Program-made: the position numbers and the translations under genes | Notes under the pieces: model-generated | What the model was told of the DNA's origin: nothing | Seen by the model: the letters and a program-made list of their open reading frames with translations, nothing else | Database searches by the model: none | Source: a virus | Reading direction: 5' to 3' (one strand) | Virus record (IMG/VR): IMGVR_UViG_3300027699_000001 | Coordinates: 1-63,615 of that record | DNA length: 63,615 nt | Shown: in pieces, positions 10,318 to 62,640 of the stretch | How positions within the stretch are numbered: the stretch's first letter is position 1 | Layout of the letters: each line of letters starts with the position of its first letter

Positions 10318-10661
10318 ATGTTTAATAAACCTTCAGATGTCCTTTTTTCTTTTAATTCATTAAACTTAATTAAGTATTCATTTACATTTGTAAAATAAAC
10401 ATTTAAAATTTTATCCAAAAATTCTTCTAAATCGTCTATTTCTATTGGAGTATTATTATCATCTACGAAAATAGCCGAAGTTTGATTTTTTTGTAATAAA
10501 GTATTACAAAAATTAATTAATTCTTTATTAACTACAAATTTACCGCCTCTTTCATAATATACAGAATTTTCTAAAAACTTTTCATATATTAACTTACGTT
10601 GATTATTCACCGTAACCATAAAATTAGAAAAATCTAGAGCTTTTTCAAGTCTTTCGTCCAT
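10314..10661 (-). CDS. Small conserved protein, first gene of the accessory operon
   Basis: This 115-residue protein (MDERLEKALDFSNFMVTVNNQ) is mostly helical and charged. It has a short central segment, FCNTLLQKNQTSAIFVDDNNTPIEIDDLEEFL. Similar small proteins occur in marine T4-like phages, but I know of no function. Its ribosome site is strong (TAGGAGG, five bases before the ATG), and the consensus promoter at 10694-10722 lies just upstream. This is therefore the promoter-proximal gene of the operon running from 10661 to beyond position 1. Confidence 0.65.
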   Translation of the reverse strand: MDERLEKALDFSNFMVTVNNQRKLIYEKFLENSVYYERGGKFVVNKELINFCNTLLQKNQTSAIFVDDNNTPIEIDDLEEFLDKILNVYFTNVNEYLIKFNELKEKRTSEGLLNI

Positions 10662-43940: not shown

Positions 43941-43969
43941 TTGACAAAATTAACTACATATATTATAAT
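43941..43969 (+). promoter_or_regulatory. Consensus sigma70-type promoter of the gp55-gp47-gp46 operon
   Basis: TTGACA (43941-43946), a spacer of exactly 17 bases, and TATAAT (43964-43969) form a perfect consensus promoter. Transcription should begin near 43976, about 15 bases before the gp55 start. It lies in the divergent gap between the minus-strand tail genes and the plus-strand operon. This makes the late sigma factor gene dependent on the host polymerase. Confidence 0.85.
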
Positions 43970-43990: not shown

Positions 43991-44827
43991 ATGAAAAAAA
44001 TAAACTATTTAAACAACAAGGACATACTAGCAGAAATACATAAATCAAAAAATACATTTAATAGCTATATAGATCCTGAATATCATCAATTTGATATAAT
44101 TTTACTTAGCATAGAGAAAATAAACATAAGAACTATTGCTACAGCAAAAAGAAATAAAGCAAAAAGATTAGGTTTACAAGAGTATGATACTAGAAAAAGT
44201 CAAGGAGAAAAACTAAAACTTGCAGATTGTGAAAAAGATTACAAAAAAATAAAAAAAACTGACGTAATTTTTAGAATTATGACTTTTGATCATATTCCAG
44301 AAGAAAAGGGTCGTAAAAAAAATCCAAAAACTATAGCAGACACCAAAGTTAAACTTAATTTCCCTCCATTTCAACACTATAAATTTAACGATGACAATGA
44401 ACTCGTTGTTATAGGCAAAAGTCATTGGATAGGAGGTATGGATAATGGATATTTTTCAAAAGATCAAGGCCAAGCGACAGATAAACTTGCTACTATGTGG
44501 ATGAAACTATGTGATAGGTACGCTACTAGAGGAAATGTTCGAGGATATACTTATAATGATGAAATGAAAGGGCAAGCTATTTTACAACTTGCTCAAATAG
44601 GTTTACAATTTGATGAATCAAAATCAAATAATCCATTTGCTTATTATACGGCTGCTGTAACAAATAGTTTTGTACGTGTTATTAACTTAGAAAAACGTAA
44701 TCAAAATATTAGAGATGATATTTTAGAACAACATGGCATGGATCCTAGTTATACTAGACAACATGCAGGAGAATGGGAAGCAAATTTAAAAAGAGAACAA
44801 GATTCTCATATTAAAAAAAATTATTAA
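43991..44827 (+). CDS. gp55: Late-transcription sigma factor gp55
   Basis: This 278-residue protein contains the gp55 core at about residues 160-250: LATMWMKLCDRYATRGNVRG, YTYNDEMKGQAILQLAQIGL and NPFAYYTAAVTNSFVRVINL. It corresponds to sigma region 2, which opens late promoters. T4 gp55 has 185 residues; this one has a longer, Lys-rich N-terminus. The C-terminus (ANLKREQDSHIKKNY) lacks the hydrophobic-acidic clamp-binding tail known for T4 gp55, so coupling to the sliding clamp may differ. The ribosome site is GGAG, and the gene directly follows the consensus promoter. Confidence 0.88.
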   Translation: MKKINYLNNKDILAEIHKSKNTFNSYIDPEYHQFDIILLSIEKINIRTIATAKRNKAKRLGLQEYDTRKSQGEKLKLADCEKDYKKIKKTDVIFRIMTFDHIPEEKGRKKNPKTIADTKVKLNFPPFQHYKFNDDNELVVIGKSHWIGGMDNGYFSKDQGQATDKLATMWMKLCDRYATRGNVRGYTYNDEMKGQAILQLAQIGLQFDESKSNNPFAYYTAAVTNSFVRVINLEKRNQNIRDDILEQHGMDPSYTRQHAGEWEANLKREQDSHIKKNY

Positions 44828-52004: not shown

Positions 52005-54362
52005 ATGGGAACAGAAGCAGAAGTACTTTCGAAATTAACAAAAAGAGTTGATGAATTAGGAAAGGTAGTATCAAATATAGGTACTAAAGGCAAGGAAGCA
52101 GCAAAAGGTATGGTTGGTGTTGCTACAGCTTTTGCTACCGGCAAACCTACTATTTCTAGTACATTAGATTCAATGGGAGGTTTGGGCAAAAATATTTCTC
52201 CTATTGCAAAACATCTAGAAAAACAAGTAGGTATGTACCAGCAACTAACACGAGGTGGTGTACATTTTAGTGGTAAAATGGAAGTTGCTGGTGAAATGGC
52301 AATAAGTGCTGGCCTAGATATGAAGCAATTTGGTGGATTAATTGAACAAAATACTGAAATGTTTGCTGCGATGGGTAATACCGCGCAAGACGGTGCGAAA
52401 AACTTCTTTAATCAATTAGAAAATCTTAGGAATAGCACAGATGGCTATGGTCAAACATTACGTGCTCTAGGTGTTAGTTACGAAGAACAAGCAGAAAACA
52501 TGGCTATGATTCAAAATTTTGAAAACATGTCTATGCGAAAAGGGTTTTCGAGTGATGCGAAAAGAAATGCTGCAACTGTGGCATTTAGTCAAGAACTAGA
52601 TCTTTTATCAAAATTAACAGGTAAACAATCTGATGAACTAAAAAAGGGCATGTCAGAAATGATGCGGTCAGGCGACTTTAAAGCACTTCAAATGGGAATG
52701 GGTGCCGATATGCAAGCGGCATTAACAACAGGTGCTGAAGAAGCCAAAGAAGCGGGCATCGGCGACTTATTCAAAGATATGATGATAAGAGGCTTTCCAA
52801 GCAAAGATCAGTCAAAACTAGCTGGATTGTATGGAGAATCTATGGCAGTTATGCAGAAAATGAAAGCAGCTCAAGATGAAGGCAATCATGCTGAATTTAA
52901 TAGATTAAAAAGTCAATTGTCAGCTGCAACACTTAAAGATCAACTGGCTAATAAAGAACTTGCTCAATTAGGAGGCACTACAGGTGTTACGCAAATTGCA
53001 TCAGCAGCATTAGCAGAAAGTGGTGCATTTCATACTACGTTAAGAAATTTATATGCACAAAAGACAAGAGAACTAGGACGAGCATTAACTGGTGACGAAG
53101 TTGATGAATTAACAGCAAAAGCTAGAGCTACGGCGAAAAAAGAACAAGACAAGCAAATTGTTGAAGTACCAAAGCAAGTAATAGGAGTAATGATTGAAGC
53201 TCAAAATGAAATGGTTAATATAGCAGCAACAACACAAAAAGAAGCTACTGTAAGAATTTATAGTGAAGTAGCAGATGCAATGGGCGGAACTTTAGCTAAA
53301 ATTAAAGCCTGGGATCCTGCTGCTAAACTAGATGAGGGTATTAATGTAGCTGTAGATTGGTTTAACGACTTTTTCACAAACGAAGGTGGCCCCGAAGCAG
53401 ACCTTGCAGTTTCTCAAGCATCACGCCTAGGTCCGGAAGGTGCTGATCTTGCCAACAAATTACAAGAACAAATTGATATTAGAGATAACGCAAATCAATC
53501 TTCTGCTCCAGGCGATGTTGAAGCTGCCGTTGCTGCTTCAACAAGGATAGCGGAATTACAAGCACAAATTAAGACAGAATCTACAAAACAGGGGATTACT
53601 CCTCCTAATACAAATCTTCCTCCGATTAATACCCAAGTAGCTAGCTCACTTCAGGCGATTCTTCAAGAACTATTAAATTGGACACAAGGCGGTCCCCCAG
53701 AGGGGCAAACAGGTTCACCTGGTATGAAACAAGCAGTTTCCGAACTTTCTTCATTAACACAAAATTGGGGTACTGGATCTCTTGCAATGCTTCATGGCGA
53801 AGAAGCAATAATAACCAAAAAACAACTTGCAATGATAGATTCATCTTTTAACGAATTATTTTCTAGAACTGCTTCTATGGAACAGCCTAAAGATTCAAAC
53901 GCCGAAGAGATCAAGAAAAAGTTTGCTTATGCAATGGCACAGCCTAAAGATCCAATGGCCGATCTAAAAAGATTAGGTATAGATCCTACAATGGGTGCTA
54001 TGCCATCCACCGGAACTAACGTTACTGATCTTCAAGGAGCGGTAAATACAATGTCAGCGCAGGACAGGCAGCGTTATATCATGCAGAATAAAGATCTTGC
54101 TCAATTAGGAGGTACTACTAGTACTACATCCGCAGCAGCAGATGCACTAGAATCAAGCAACAGTATGTCAGATTTACTAAGAGTAATGCATGAAATGAAA
54201 GATGCTTTAGCGACAGGTGATAATGAAGGATTTAAAGAAATGAAAAACTCTTTAAATGAAATGACGAAATTAGCACAAGTTCAAAATAGAATTGCTGGAA
54301 AACATTTGAAAGTAGGTAAAGGAATGGTTGGTGATCTTTTTGCAGGAGGACCTAGAGTATGA
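52005..54362 (+). CDS. Tail tape-measure-like virion protein
   Basis: This 785-residue protein has long helical stretches rich in Ala, Gln and Lys (residues 1-420), followed by a Gly/Pro/Asn linker. A typical tape-measure end, LAMLHGEEAIITKKQLAMID (about 593-612), resembles the 'LHGxEAVIP' segment of many tail proteins. The module ELAQLGGTTGVTQIASAALA (about 320) recurs as DLAQLGGTTSTTSAAADALE (about 697). It starts at a late promoter with AGGA before the ATG, and its stop overlaps the portal start (ATGA). It could be the gp29 analogue, which I cannot confirm. Confidence 0.6.
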   Translation: MGTEAEVLSKLTKRVDELGKVVSNIGTKGKEAAKGMVGVATAFATGKPTISSTLDSMGGLGKNISPIAKHLEKQVGMYQQLTRGGVHFSGKMEVAGEMAISAGLDMKQFGGLIEQNTEMFAAMGNTAQDGAKNFFNQLENLRNSTDGYGQTLRALGVSYEEQAENMAMIQNFENMSMRKGFSSDAKRNAATVAFSQELDLLSKLTGKQSDELKKGMSEMMRSGDFKALQMGMGADMQAALTTGAEEAKEAGIGDLFKDMMIRGFPSKDQSKLAGLYGESMAVMQKMKAAQDEGNHAEFNRLKSQLSAATLKDQLANKELAQLGGTTGVTQIASAALAESGAFHTTLRNLYAQKTRELGRALTGDEVDELTAKARATAKKEQDKQIVEVPKQVIGVMIEAQNEMVNIAATTQKEATVRIYSEVADAMGGTLAKIKAWDPAAKLDEGINVAVDWFNDFFTNEGGPEADLAVSQASRLGPEGADLANKLQEQIDIRDNANQSSAPGDVEAAVAASTRIAELQAQIKTESTKQGITPPNTNLPPINTQVASSLQAILQELLNWTQGGPPEGQTGSPGMKQAVSELSSLTQNWGTGSLAMLHGEEAIITKKQLAMIDSSFNELFSRTASMEQPKDSNAEEIKKKFAYAMAQPKDPMADLKRLGIDPTMGAMPSTGTNVTDLQGAVNTMSAQDRQRYIMQNKDLAQLGGTTSTTSAAADALESSNSMSDLLRVMHEMKDALATGDNEGFKEMKNSLNEMTKLAQVQNRIAGKHLKVGKGMVGDLFAGGPRV

Positions 54363-59974: not shown

Positions 59975-61144
59975 ATGTCAGAACTACTAGAAAGTCGCTG
60001 GCAGGATACCAAAGGTGCCCTTCTTGAAGGCCTTATAGGCACAAAGAAAGCCGTTATGGCAACTACTCTGGAAAATACTCGTAAGTATTTGTCAGAAGCT
60101 GCTACTGGTGGCGCTACTTCTGCCGGAAATGTCGCAACTCTTAACAGAGTTATTTTACCCGTTATTAGACGTGTAATGCCAACCGTTATTGCTAACGAAT
60201 TAGTTGGTGTTCAGCCTATGACAGGTCCCGTGGGACAAATCCACACTCTGCGTGTTCGCTATAGCGACACCAATGATAATGTAGTAGCTGGTGAGGAAGC
60301 ACTTTCCCCATTCAAGATTGCTACAGCATATTCAGGTACTGGTACAGACCCAGCAGGCGTTGCAGATGCAACGGCTACGTTAGAAGGGTCAGCTGGTCGA
60401 AGAATGTCAATCCAGATCATGAAGCAAACTGTTGAAGCAAAAACTCGTAAGTTGTCAGCTCGCTGGACTTTTGAGGCTGCTCAGGATGCACAATCACAGC
60501 ATGGTATTGACGTTGAAGCAGAAATTATGGCTGCTTTAGCACAAGAAATTACCGCTGAAATTGATCAGGAAGTTCTCAATAGCCTAGGTACCCTAGCTGG
60601 TACGGCTGCTGAAACATATGACCAAGCTGCTGTAAGTGGTACTGCTACTTTTGTTGGTGATGAACATGCTGCTTTAGCTGTTCAAATCAATCGCGTTAGC
60701 AATTTAATTGCACAACGTACACGTCGCGGTGCAGGTAACTGGTGTGTTGTTAGCCCATTTGCGTTAACAATTCTACAGTCTGCAACAACTTCAGCTTTTG
60801 CACGTACCACAGAAGGTACTTTTGAAGCTCCAACTAACACAAAGTTAGTAGGTACTTTGAATAGTGCAATGAAAGTATATGTTAACACATATGCTGCTGA
60901 TAGTGCCGACGTATTGGTTGGTTATAAAGGTTCAAGCGAATCTGATGCTGCTGCATTCTATTGCCCATACATCCCATTGATGTCAAGCGGTGTAGTGTTA
61001 GATCCTAGTTCATTCGAGCCAGTCGTATCATTTATGACACGATATGGTTACGTTGAGCTTTCTAACTCAGCAAGTTCGCTAGGTAATGCTGCTGATTACT
61101 TGAGTAAAGTAGCAATTACTAACGCTAACGTTAGCTTCCAGTAA
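59975..61144 (+). CDS. gp23: Major capsid protein gp23
   Basis: This 389-residue protein has MSELLESRWQDTKGALLEGL at the N-terminus and GNVATLNRVILPVIRRVMPT, MTGPVGQIHTLRVRYSDTND and RTRRGAGNWCVVSPFALTIL downstream, all hallmarks of gp23 in marine T4-like phages. A gp21 cleavage site is visible as KYLSE/AATGG, between E41 and A42, which would remove the N-terminal propeptide. It is shorter than T4 gp23 (521), as in cyanophages. It has an ideal ribosome site (AAGGAGAAAATA) and a strong terminator about 35 bases after the stop. Confidence 0.95.
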   Translation: MSELLESRWQDTKGALLEGLIGTKKAVMATTLENTRKYLSEAATGGATSAGNVATLNRVILPVIRRVMPTVIANELVGVQPMTGPVGQIHTLRVRYSDTNDNVVAGEEALSPFKIATAYSGTGTDPAGVADATATLEGSAGRRMSIQIMKQTVEAKTRKLSARWTFEAAQDAQSQHGIDVEAEIMAALAQEITAEIDQEVLNSLGTLAGTAAETYDQAAVSGTATFVGDEHAALAVQINRVSNLIAQRTRRGAGNWCVVSPFALTILQSATTSAFARTTEGTFEAPTNTKLVGTLNSAMKVYVNTYAADSADVLVGYKGSSESDAAAFYCPYIPLMSSGVVLDPSSFEPVVSFMTRYGYVELSNSASSLGNAADYLSKVAITNANVSFQ

Positions 61145-61178: not shown

Positions 61179-61208
61179 AAGAGTGACTTCGGTCACTCTT
61201 TTTTTTGG
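61179..61208 (+). terminator. Strong intrinsic terminator after gp23
   Basis: AAGAGTGAC, TTCG, GTCACTCTT form a perfect 9-bp stem with a UUCG tetraloop, followed by a T run and a second T-rich stretch. It closes the head operon. A smaller hairpin (GTTAC-TTAG-GTAAC) precedes it. Confidence 0.93.
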
Positions 61209-61226: not shown

Positions 61227-61255
61227 TTGACAAACTAATATAGATCATGTATATT
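61227..61255 (+). promoter_or_regulatory. Consensus sigma70-type promoter of a small RNA gene
   Basis: TTGACA (61227-61232), 17 bases, TATATT (61250-61255). The start is expected near 61262. The bases before the -35 box match those of the promoter at 10717 (ATAGGTTGACA). It is isolated from the upstream operon by the strong terminator. Confidence 0.8.
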
Positions 61256-61261
61256 AGTACT

Positions 61262-61508
61262 TGTAATGAGGACGCTCATTACACGGGTTGCAGGGAAGAG
61301 GTGTAGTCGAAGCACCGAACCTGGCTTGTCAGGGGTAGTACCCAGGGGCCTACTCGAAAGAGAACGGTTTCACATTGTGCCTACTAGCACAGGACAAGGC
61401 GTTGCCGCAAAATCGAACAAGGGATTTGGACGGCAGCTGGAGGTAATCCCAAGTCCTTCACCCACCTTTTTTAGAAAGGGCCTAGTACTATTTTGTACTA
61501 GGCTTTTT
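61262..61508 (+). ncRNA. Free-standing structured small RNA, family unknown
   Basis: A transcript of about 245 bases is bounded by a consensus promoter and an intrinsic terminator. It is GC-rich (33 of 60 bases in 61321-61380) in an AT-rich genome. Stems: 61262-61270 with 61275-61283 (9 bp, GACG loop, at the very 5' end); 61284-61289 with 61318-61323; inside it 61300-61304 with 61312-61316; 61376-61380 with 61387-61391; and 61401-61407 with 61431-61437 (7 bp) enclosing 61410-61414 with 61423-61427. It is not tRNA, and I see no tmRNA, RNase P or 6S features. An open frame across it (61266-61547) spans the terminator and resembles no protein. Confidence 0.75.
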
Positions 61509-61512
61509 CTTT
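61480..61512 (+). terminator. Intrinsic terminator of the small RNA
   Basis: GCCTAGTAC, six-base loop TATTTT, GTACTAGGC form a perfect 9-bp stem followed by TTTTTCTTT. Confidence 0.92.
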
Positions 61513-61557
61513 ATTCCTTTCTCAAAAAATCATTGCATACACATTAGTTCTTTGTAT

Positions 61558-61565
61558 GATAAATA
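61558..61565 (+). promoter_or_regulatory. Late promoter motif GATAAATA
   Basis: This plus-strand motif lies between the small RNA terminator and the next virion gene. The predicted leader is about 32 bases before the ATG at 61603. Confidence 0.55.
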
Positions 61566-61602
61566 CTTTATCAATGAGAGTATACCGCATTAGGATTAAA
61601 TA

Positions 61603-62640
61603 ATGTCAAAAATTTTAAGAGTAGGAAACGGCGACTATAAAATTTTAGTTAAACAAGGAGGTAGTATCACGTTAGATACTACTGATAATGCCCTTGATAA
61701 AACCGGAACAGTTGTAGTTACTGGTAATTTAGAAATTAAAGGAACAACAACCACTGTTGATTCTACCATAGTTACCATTGCAGATAATATTATTGTTCTT
61801 TCTAAAGATAATGTTGCTGCTGGAATTCCTGCTAGTTTAAATTATAGAAGTGGAATAGAAATAGAAAGAGGAAGTTTATTAAATTCCCGTGTAGTATATG
61901 ATGAACAAATAAATTGGACAACAGGTGGTTCTTCAGGTGCAGGAACTTTTACTTTTGAACAAGGAGTTACAACAATTCCTATTAAAGCAAGTGGAATGTT
62001 AAATTCAGGTAGTATCTATTTACAACCCACAGGCGGAACTGTATCTGTAACAAATACTACAAATTATGAAGAACGAGTATATTTTTATGACGGCGGCGTA
62101 GTAACTGATCCTGGAGATGGAATTGTTATAAGAGATGACGACCATTTACCTAATGCAAAAGGTATAGCAGATTATGTAACTTATATTTTAGCCCAAGGTG
62201 CATTTCAAGATAGGATAGAAGAAGGTGCTTATGGGGACGAAACATATGTAGAAACTAAAGATTTTAGTGAAACAGGATTAGAAAGTAATGTAGAAATTGG
62301 CGTAGATGGTAATGCAGTAGGTAACTTTTATTCTAATAGAATAGACTTATTTGATGTAAGAATTGATGCAAATCGAATCTCATCAACAGCTAGTAACCAA
62401 AACTTAATACTAAGTGCTCCTGGTACAGGAACAGTCCAAATTACAGATATTTTAGAAATGTCAGAAACGCCTCATGCTGATGATGTTTCGATTGATCCTG
62501 GAACCCCTTCAGACGGAATAAAAGTTTATTCTAAAACACAAGCAGGCGGCGGCACAGGATTATATTTCGCAAATAAAAGTGCAACCGCCGACGAAATAAT
62601 AAGTAGAAATAGAGCATTAATTTTTAGTATGATATTCTAA
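61603..62640 (+). CDS. Fibre/virion structural protein
   Basis: In this 345-residue beta-rich protein, the N-terminal half contains the fibre repeat GTVVVTGNLEIKGTTTTVDS then IVTIADNIIVLSKDNVAAG. The C-terminus ends EIISRNRALIFSMIF, an ending I know from other marine phage virion proteins found after gp23. It has an AGGA ribosome site and its own late promoter. The location in the virion is unknown; fibre or head-decoration roles are both possible. Confidence 0.65.
   Translation: MSKILRVGNGDYKILVKQGGSITLDTTDNALDKTGTVVVTGNLEIKGTTTTVDSTIVTIADNIIVLSKDNVAAGIPASLNYRSGIEIERGSLLNSRVVYDEQINWTTGGSSGAGTFTFEQGVTTIPIKASGMLNSGSIYLQPTGGTVSVTNTTNYEERVYFYDGGVVTDPGDGIVIRDDDHLPNAKGIADYVTYILAQGAFQDRIEEGAYGDETYVETKDFSETGLESNVEIGVDGNAVGNFYSNRIDLFDVRIDANRISSTASNQNLILSAPGTGTVQITDILEMSETPHADDVSIDPGTPSDGIKVYSKTQAGGGTGLYFANKSATADEIISRNRALIFSMIF

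Follow-up and report, generated by a model that had tools for sequence, protein, structure and literature searches.

A manA-family RNA, probably a stand-alone gene, in a large T4-like marine phage

A 2010 report described the manA RNA in marine metagenomes, in cyanophages, and in two gammaproteobacteria, presenting it as a possible riboswitch in 5' UTRs (Weinberg 2010, PMC2864571). A figure legend in that report marks its pseudoknot as uncertain (PMC2864571), and later work is described as having improved the family structure. Rfam labels the family Cis-reg, and manA has been a riboswitch candidate for over fifteen years. Our literature search found no ligand or function for manA, and no paper that treats it as a stand-alone RNA.

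Other structured RNAs share parts of this setting. The glutamine riboswitch (RF01739) and freshwater-2 (RF02980) occur, as structured RNAs, in the region downstream of gp23 in relatives of the locus described here; they are separate families, with freshwater-2 placed farther from gp23, in the direction of the next late gene. ROOL and GOLLD are also phage-carried and found near tRNA genes. They resemble our RNA as large structured non-coding RNAs in their placement only, as they are much larger and of unrelated structure, and neither gave an Rfam match in the window. The wcaG RNA (RF01761) appears in the same 2010 report, again from marine metagenomes and cyanophages, and sits beside manA in S-CREM1, but it belongs to a different Rfam family, which is not matched anywhere in the window. 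Finally, the HK022 put RNA is a structured phage RNA placed right behind an early host-type promoter; put is small and acts in cis on the polymerase, whereas the RNA described here is followed at once by a terminator.

We compared these systems with a locus in a 63.6-kb viral contig from IMG/VR, referred to throughout as the window. The contig belongs to a large T4-like phage, and its gp23 is 67 to 73% identical to those of phages with mostly 280- to 470-kb genomes. The major capsid protein gene gp23 (59975-61144, plus strand, as are all features of the locus; Pfam PF07068, E = 1.4e-99; PHROG major head protein) is followed by an intrinsic terminator with a 9-bp hairpin and a T run (61179-61200), which would insulate the RNA unit on its upstream side. 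The unit begins with a sigma-70-type promoter (61227-61255), TTGACA (61227-61232) and TATATT (61250-61255) being separated by 17 nt. This promoter matches the consensus at 11/12 positions and is one of only three sites with at least 11/12 on both strands of the whole window. At the predicted RNA 5' end, hairpin P1 (UGUAAUGAG-GACG-CUCAUUACA, 61262-61283) forms 9 bp around a GACG loop (-10.3 kcal/mol, z = -6.5), and the unit ends in an intrinsic terminator at 61473-61510 (up to 16 pairs, -23.7 kcal/mol, T-rich tail). Outside it lie a T4-like late-promoter motif, GATAAATAC (61558-61566), found in the same place in relatives, and the gene that this motif would serve, encoding a probable structural protein of 345 amino acids (61603-62640; matching PHROG 15769 and, weakly, a structural-protein PHROG).

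The RNA body (61262-61515) has a minimum free energy of -100 kcal/mol against -73 +/- 5 for shuffled sequences (z = -5.35); no shuffle out of 200 reached that stability. GC content is 53% in the RNA and 32% in the window. These results agree with a sequence-only reading of this stretch, which had described a complete small transcription unit behind the gp23 terminator, comprising this promoter, a 9-bp hairpin at the start, and a GC-rich folded body. It had also given the terminator 9 bp; the strong intrinsic terminator is there, but its stem reaches 16 pairs. The same reading saw no believable protein, in line with our rejection of a 93-amino-acid open reading frame (61266-61547) that spans the RNA and its terminator. 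Its frame is unconserved, and relatives have shorter longest stop-free runs in shifted frames.

A second contig, L093, repeats the region with 99.6% identity over 9.7 kb and an identical RNA, so the RNA region is not an assembly accident. L093 seemingly comes from the same phage; past the 9.7-kb match, only 82% identity is seen over 1.1 kb, a divergence suggesting that the sequence near 53363-53934 of the window is a variable segment. Elsewhere in the window, gp55, the late-transcription sigma factor gene (43991-44827), is directly preceded by TTGACA-17-TATAAT at 43941-43969, the sole 12/12 sigma-70 promoter found. Strong host-type promoters are scarce in the window, where they mark genes with early or middle functions. 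No tRNA or tmRNA was detected in the window.

The only Rfam match within the window was manA (RF01745), which covers the structured core at 61265-61469 over the full model (1-192 of 192) with 64.6 bits against a cut-off of 55.2. The earlier statement that the RNA matches no recognizable family was therefore wrong, and we rejected an unknown family as its identity. Our own covariance model, R1, for which E-values are rough, matched 61262-61467 with 123 bits. Judged by these models, the window RNA is a divergent member of RF01745; most cyanophage copies score 145 to 196 bits as manA, and those of ACG-2014f and S-CREM1 score 90 to 97. It shares with the family its helices, conserved 3' hairpin, closing helix, and marine phage setting, and covariance score, compensated helices, and pseudoknot all place it there. 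It differs in being diverged and free-standing, flanked by a promoter and a terminator of its own; the family was described in 5' UTRs. The placement before a regulated gene that the Cis-reg label implies was found neither in the window nor in its clade, where a terminator and a late promoter intervene; this bears on the functional label, not on homology.

Relatives were collected from 80 gp23 loci taken from IMG/VR. A covariance model was needed because plain BLAST of the RNA against phage records detected no homologue; its matches were promoter-like, apart from a short chance match in S-SSM7. We built the model on 20 copies, the window and 19 relatives downstream of gp23, and it found 24 matches among the gp23 loci, window included. 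Two DNA patterns inside the RNA body gave 112 further loci, and all 112 match the model. Excluding cut-off copies left 85 distinct stretches containing 24 non-redundant RNAs of the window type; overall, the collection comprises about 85 distinct relatives of the window type and about 120 of the cyanophage type. Apart from the 20 model-building sequences, which were first chosen partly by promoter, the window-type set was gathered by RNA-body patterns and model, not by promoter or terminator. The 112 pattern-found loci are without that bias and show the same promoter. The search for homologues behind gp23 that the sequence-only reading had proposed was thus successful, and the homologues covary (below). 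Of the 45 gp23 loci whose downstream sequence extends 1.3 kb or more, 17 carry the RNA, making it common there but not universal. Beyond phage records, the pattern search of bacterial genomes matched only three contigs, one from a Prochlorococcus single cell and two from metagenome-assembled genomes labelled Gammaproteobacteria, which we read as viral. Pelagibacter phage HTVC008M gave a weak model match (18 bits) that overlaps an annotated gene.

To examine the fold across relatives, we used the Rfam manA structure, which was not derived from these sequences, on a sequence-only alignment of 20 sequences. With this structure, 77% of alignment cells were paired, compared with 37 to 51% when it was slid by 1 to 3 columns, a control that retains the relatedness of the sequences. 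Both sides had changed in 38 of its 49 pairs, a value no shuffle reached, although shuffle counts among related sequences are not probabilities. RNAalifold on the sequence-only alignment gave 35 pairs, of which 30 show one or more compensated changes. In the long-range closing helix, 61284-61288 pair with 61460-61464; 90% of its cells are paired, and all five pairs carry a compensated change. The last conserved hairpin (61439-61459) is paired in 100% of cells in alignment A1. A hairpin at the position of P1 is predicted in 24/24 non-redundant relatives with differing sequence, and support is poor for the small inner helix 9 (48% of cells paired).

The loop of the last hairpin, AAUCCC (61445-61450), pairs with GGGAUU (61421-61426) in a predicted loop-loop pseudoknot that covaries across relatives. 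The pairs GGGAUU-AAUCCC of the window become AUGAUC-GAUCAU, AGGAU-AUCCU, CUGAU-AUCAG, CUCGGU-ACCGAG, CUGUA-UACAG, UAAUGUA-UACAUUA, and others elsewhere, and covariation as high was reached in 0 and 3 of 5000 permutations. In L050-type copies the pseudoknot is weak, with 3 pairs. We do not claim it as new, and it may equal the one marked in 2010. Together, the extensive covariation and the pseudoknot indicate that selection acts on the RNA.

In the window's clade, the RNA mostly lies 0.1 to 1.3 kb downstream of gp23, and its transcription signals are conserved as expected of an independent small-RNA gene. Its own promoter, ending a few nucleotides before the RNA, scores at least 9/12 in 23/24 non-redundant copies (2.8% at random positions) and 10/12 in 22/24 (0.2%), and a terminator falls within 80 nt of the RNA 3' end, usually at 5 to 10 nt, in 19/24 (2.8%); these null rates were taken at random points of the same contigs, and for AT-rich intergenic DNA they would be somewhat higher, though not close to 80 to 96%. 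The sole non-redundant clade copy without a promoter, in L188, lies 12 nt after a tRNA-Asn and faces an opposite-strand open reading frame. The next gene is preceded by a T4-like late promoter (ATAAATA) in 73/79 relatives (null 2.1%) and in 19/22 non-redundant ones. That gene belongs to one family in most clade copies (65), while the window's differs, and several relatives have a freshwater-2 leader motif before it. The RNA is therefore fenced off on both sides and, because the next gene has its own late promoter, is not the leader of that gene. This supports the earlier proposal of an independently transcribed non-coding RNA using a host-type promoter among late genes.

We consider it probable, with moderate confidence, that the window stretch is a stand-alone manA-family RNA gene of a large T4-like marine phage, most likely trans-acting and early. 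Comparative analysis of the predicted elements demonstrates family membership, conserved structure, the unit's own promoter and terminator, and its separation from the next gene. In the proposed mechanism, host RNA polymerase carrying a sigma-70-type factor would transcribe from about 61262 to about 61512, yielding an RNA roughly 250 nt long. Behind its 5' hairpin, the core would be held shut by the long-range helix, with a kissing loop joining the last two hairpins to lock the fold. This structured RNA would be stable and made early in infection, and would most likely act in trans through a bound protein or by pairing with other RNAs. We infer early timing from promoter type alone, as the promoter is of the host-type class that includes the 12/12 site of gp55 whereas the promoter of the next gene is late-type, and trans action from the isolation of the unit. 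If the RNA does stand alone, the label of the manA family needs revising.

Against this reading, a promoter before and a terminator after an RNA is also the layout of an attenuating riboswitch. As a riboswitch, the class given by the 2010 report (PMC2864571) and Rfam, the RNA would sense a metabolite and decide passage through the 61473-61510 terminator into the next gene. Such an expression platform should pair with the terminator arms, but in 19 relatives we found no antiterminator pairing between these arms and the RNA above chance, and the late promoter of the next gene in the clade also speaks against it. The cyanophage-type copies offer a riboswitch more room. There, a same-strand gene usually follows closely, recurrently gp32 (23 copies) or talC (14), otherwise thyX-like (9), mannose-6-phosphate-isomerase-like (2), or one of about 20 other families, as named from the sequences and not by profile scan. 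A terminator was found in only 24/104 copies with the test used here. Since many copies run directly into same-strand genes, which fits a cis element and counts against the stand-alone reading, a role in cis is possible for the cyanophage copies. However, these downstream genes span more than 20 families with no common pathway, and other copies lie in tRNA arrays or precede an opposite-strand gene. On balance, we regard a riboswitch or attenuator as an unlikely explanation of the window RNA.

Some of these other copies adjoin tRNA genes. The RNA of S-CREM1 occupies almost precisely the space separating tRNA-Leu from tRNA-Asn, that of ACG-2014f is flanked by two tRNAs, and in L026 and L156, tRNAs follow it. 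Placement in tRNA arrays fits stable RNAs, not leaders. We also inspected fifteen copies in records of cyanophages and single-cell viruses. In P-TIM68, the gene after the RNA is on the opposite strand. Five of the fifteen copies lie directly behind gp23 or a gene annotated gp24, so the post-gp23 position is common to cyanophages and the window's clade. The cultured cyanophages P-HM1 and MED4-213 carry their copy after gp23, with a terminator behind the RNA.

Reading the sequences directly, we found a TTGAC-type promoter adjoining the RNA in all fifteen copies except that of P-HM2, which has a clear -10 and a weaker -35. Among metagenomic cyanophage-type copies, 111/114 have the promoter, and in the three without it the RNA comes after a tRNA (L312, identified by ARAGORN) or after a sequence resembling a tRNA 3' end (L335 and L261, by eye). 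A position immediately behind a sigma-70 promoter is thus the one near-constant feature of the family, which makes a put-like effect the most interesting rival. By analogy with HK022 put, a phage precedent (PMC9378689), the nascent RNA would bind its own RNA polymerase and promote read-through of pauses and terminators, and a location in front of diverse early genes or tRNA arrays would suit such a role. In the window's clade, however, read-through seems unwanted, given the strong terminator within 10 nt downstream and the next gene's own late promoter, and copies with opposite-strand neighbours also argue against it. The window RNA is, in addition, larger and more elaborate than put. We therefore hold this explanation to be improbable. 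More improbable still is a transcript made for DNA-level work, such as replication priming from a strong promoter by analogy with T4 origins, with the fold only shaping the primer; a strong isolated promoter, a short transcript, and a position that varies between phage genomes would suit it, but the covariation and pseudoknot reveal selection on the RNA itself, and neither a terminator nor copies in tRNA arrays would be expected.

The reading as a stand-alone, trans-acting RNA gene may extend to the family. It is conceivable, at somewhat less than even chance, that the entire manA family consists of structured, trans-acting RNAs linked to a promoter, and that T4-like marine phages carry promoter and RNA together as a movable cassette behind gp23, in tRNA arrays, or at the head of early operons. 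If the RNA stands alone, ligand searches would be the wrong experiment, and protein or RNA partners and the effect of deletion would matter instead. As the family spans T4-like phages of the ocean, including cultured cyanophages, this can be tested in existing isolates.

Several further elements were observed around manA copies. In several cyanophage copies, the -35 falls within a terminator-like hairpin belonging to the upstream gene, and a T run and then an extended -10 come next (GAGGGTGCTTGACACCCTCTTTTTTTATGCTATAAT). Such a fused terminator-promoter upstream of manA, with TTGACA inside the hairpin (GAGGGTGCTTGACACCCTC-T7-ATGCTATAAT), occurs in L206, L207, L211, L212, L226, and others. On the downstream side, a conserved terminator-like element, GACCTAAGATGCAACT(n)AGTSGGGCAGATGGTC, lies about 10 to 60 nt after manA in L249, L229, L254, L237, L262, L245, and L260, usually with a T run next. 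It follows many cyanophage-type copies and has no separate Rfam match, and its conserved internal loop exceeds the needs of a terminator. In L126, L139, and L155, a GC-rich, apparently conserved block (GAACTGTAACWAGAAAGGAGACYCRCTAGACAAGAA...) without an Rfam match replaces the terminator 0 to 260 nt after manA and is possibly a further new RNA.

The S-CREM1 records (L197:2032-2068; 10531-10567) also contain an abiF RNA between tRNA-Asn and tRNA-Gly, right after manA; this tRNA array therefore holds other non-coding RNAs too. Permuted tmRNA (Rfam alpha_tmRNA and tmRNA_permuted) was matched on two manA-bearing viral contigs, at L155:887-1189 (minus strand) and L188:2223-2589 (plus strand). These are possibly phage-borne permuted tmRNAs, with predicted tags ANDNYAPEMALAA and ANNNFAPSEIALAA.
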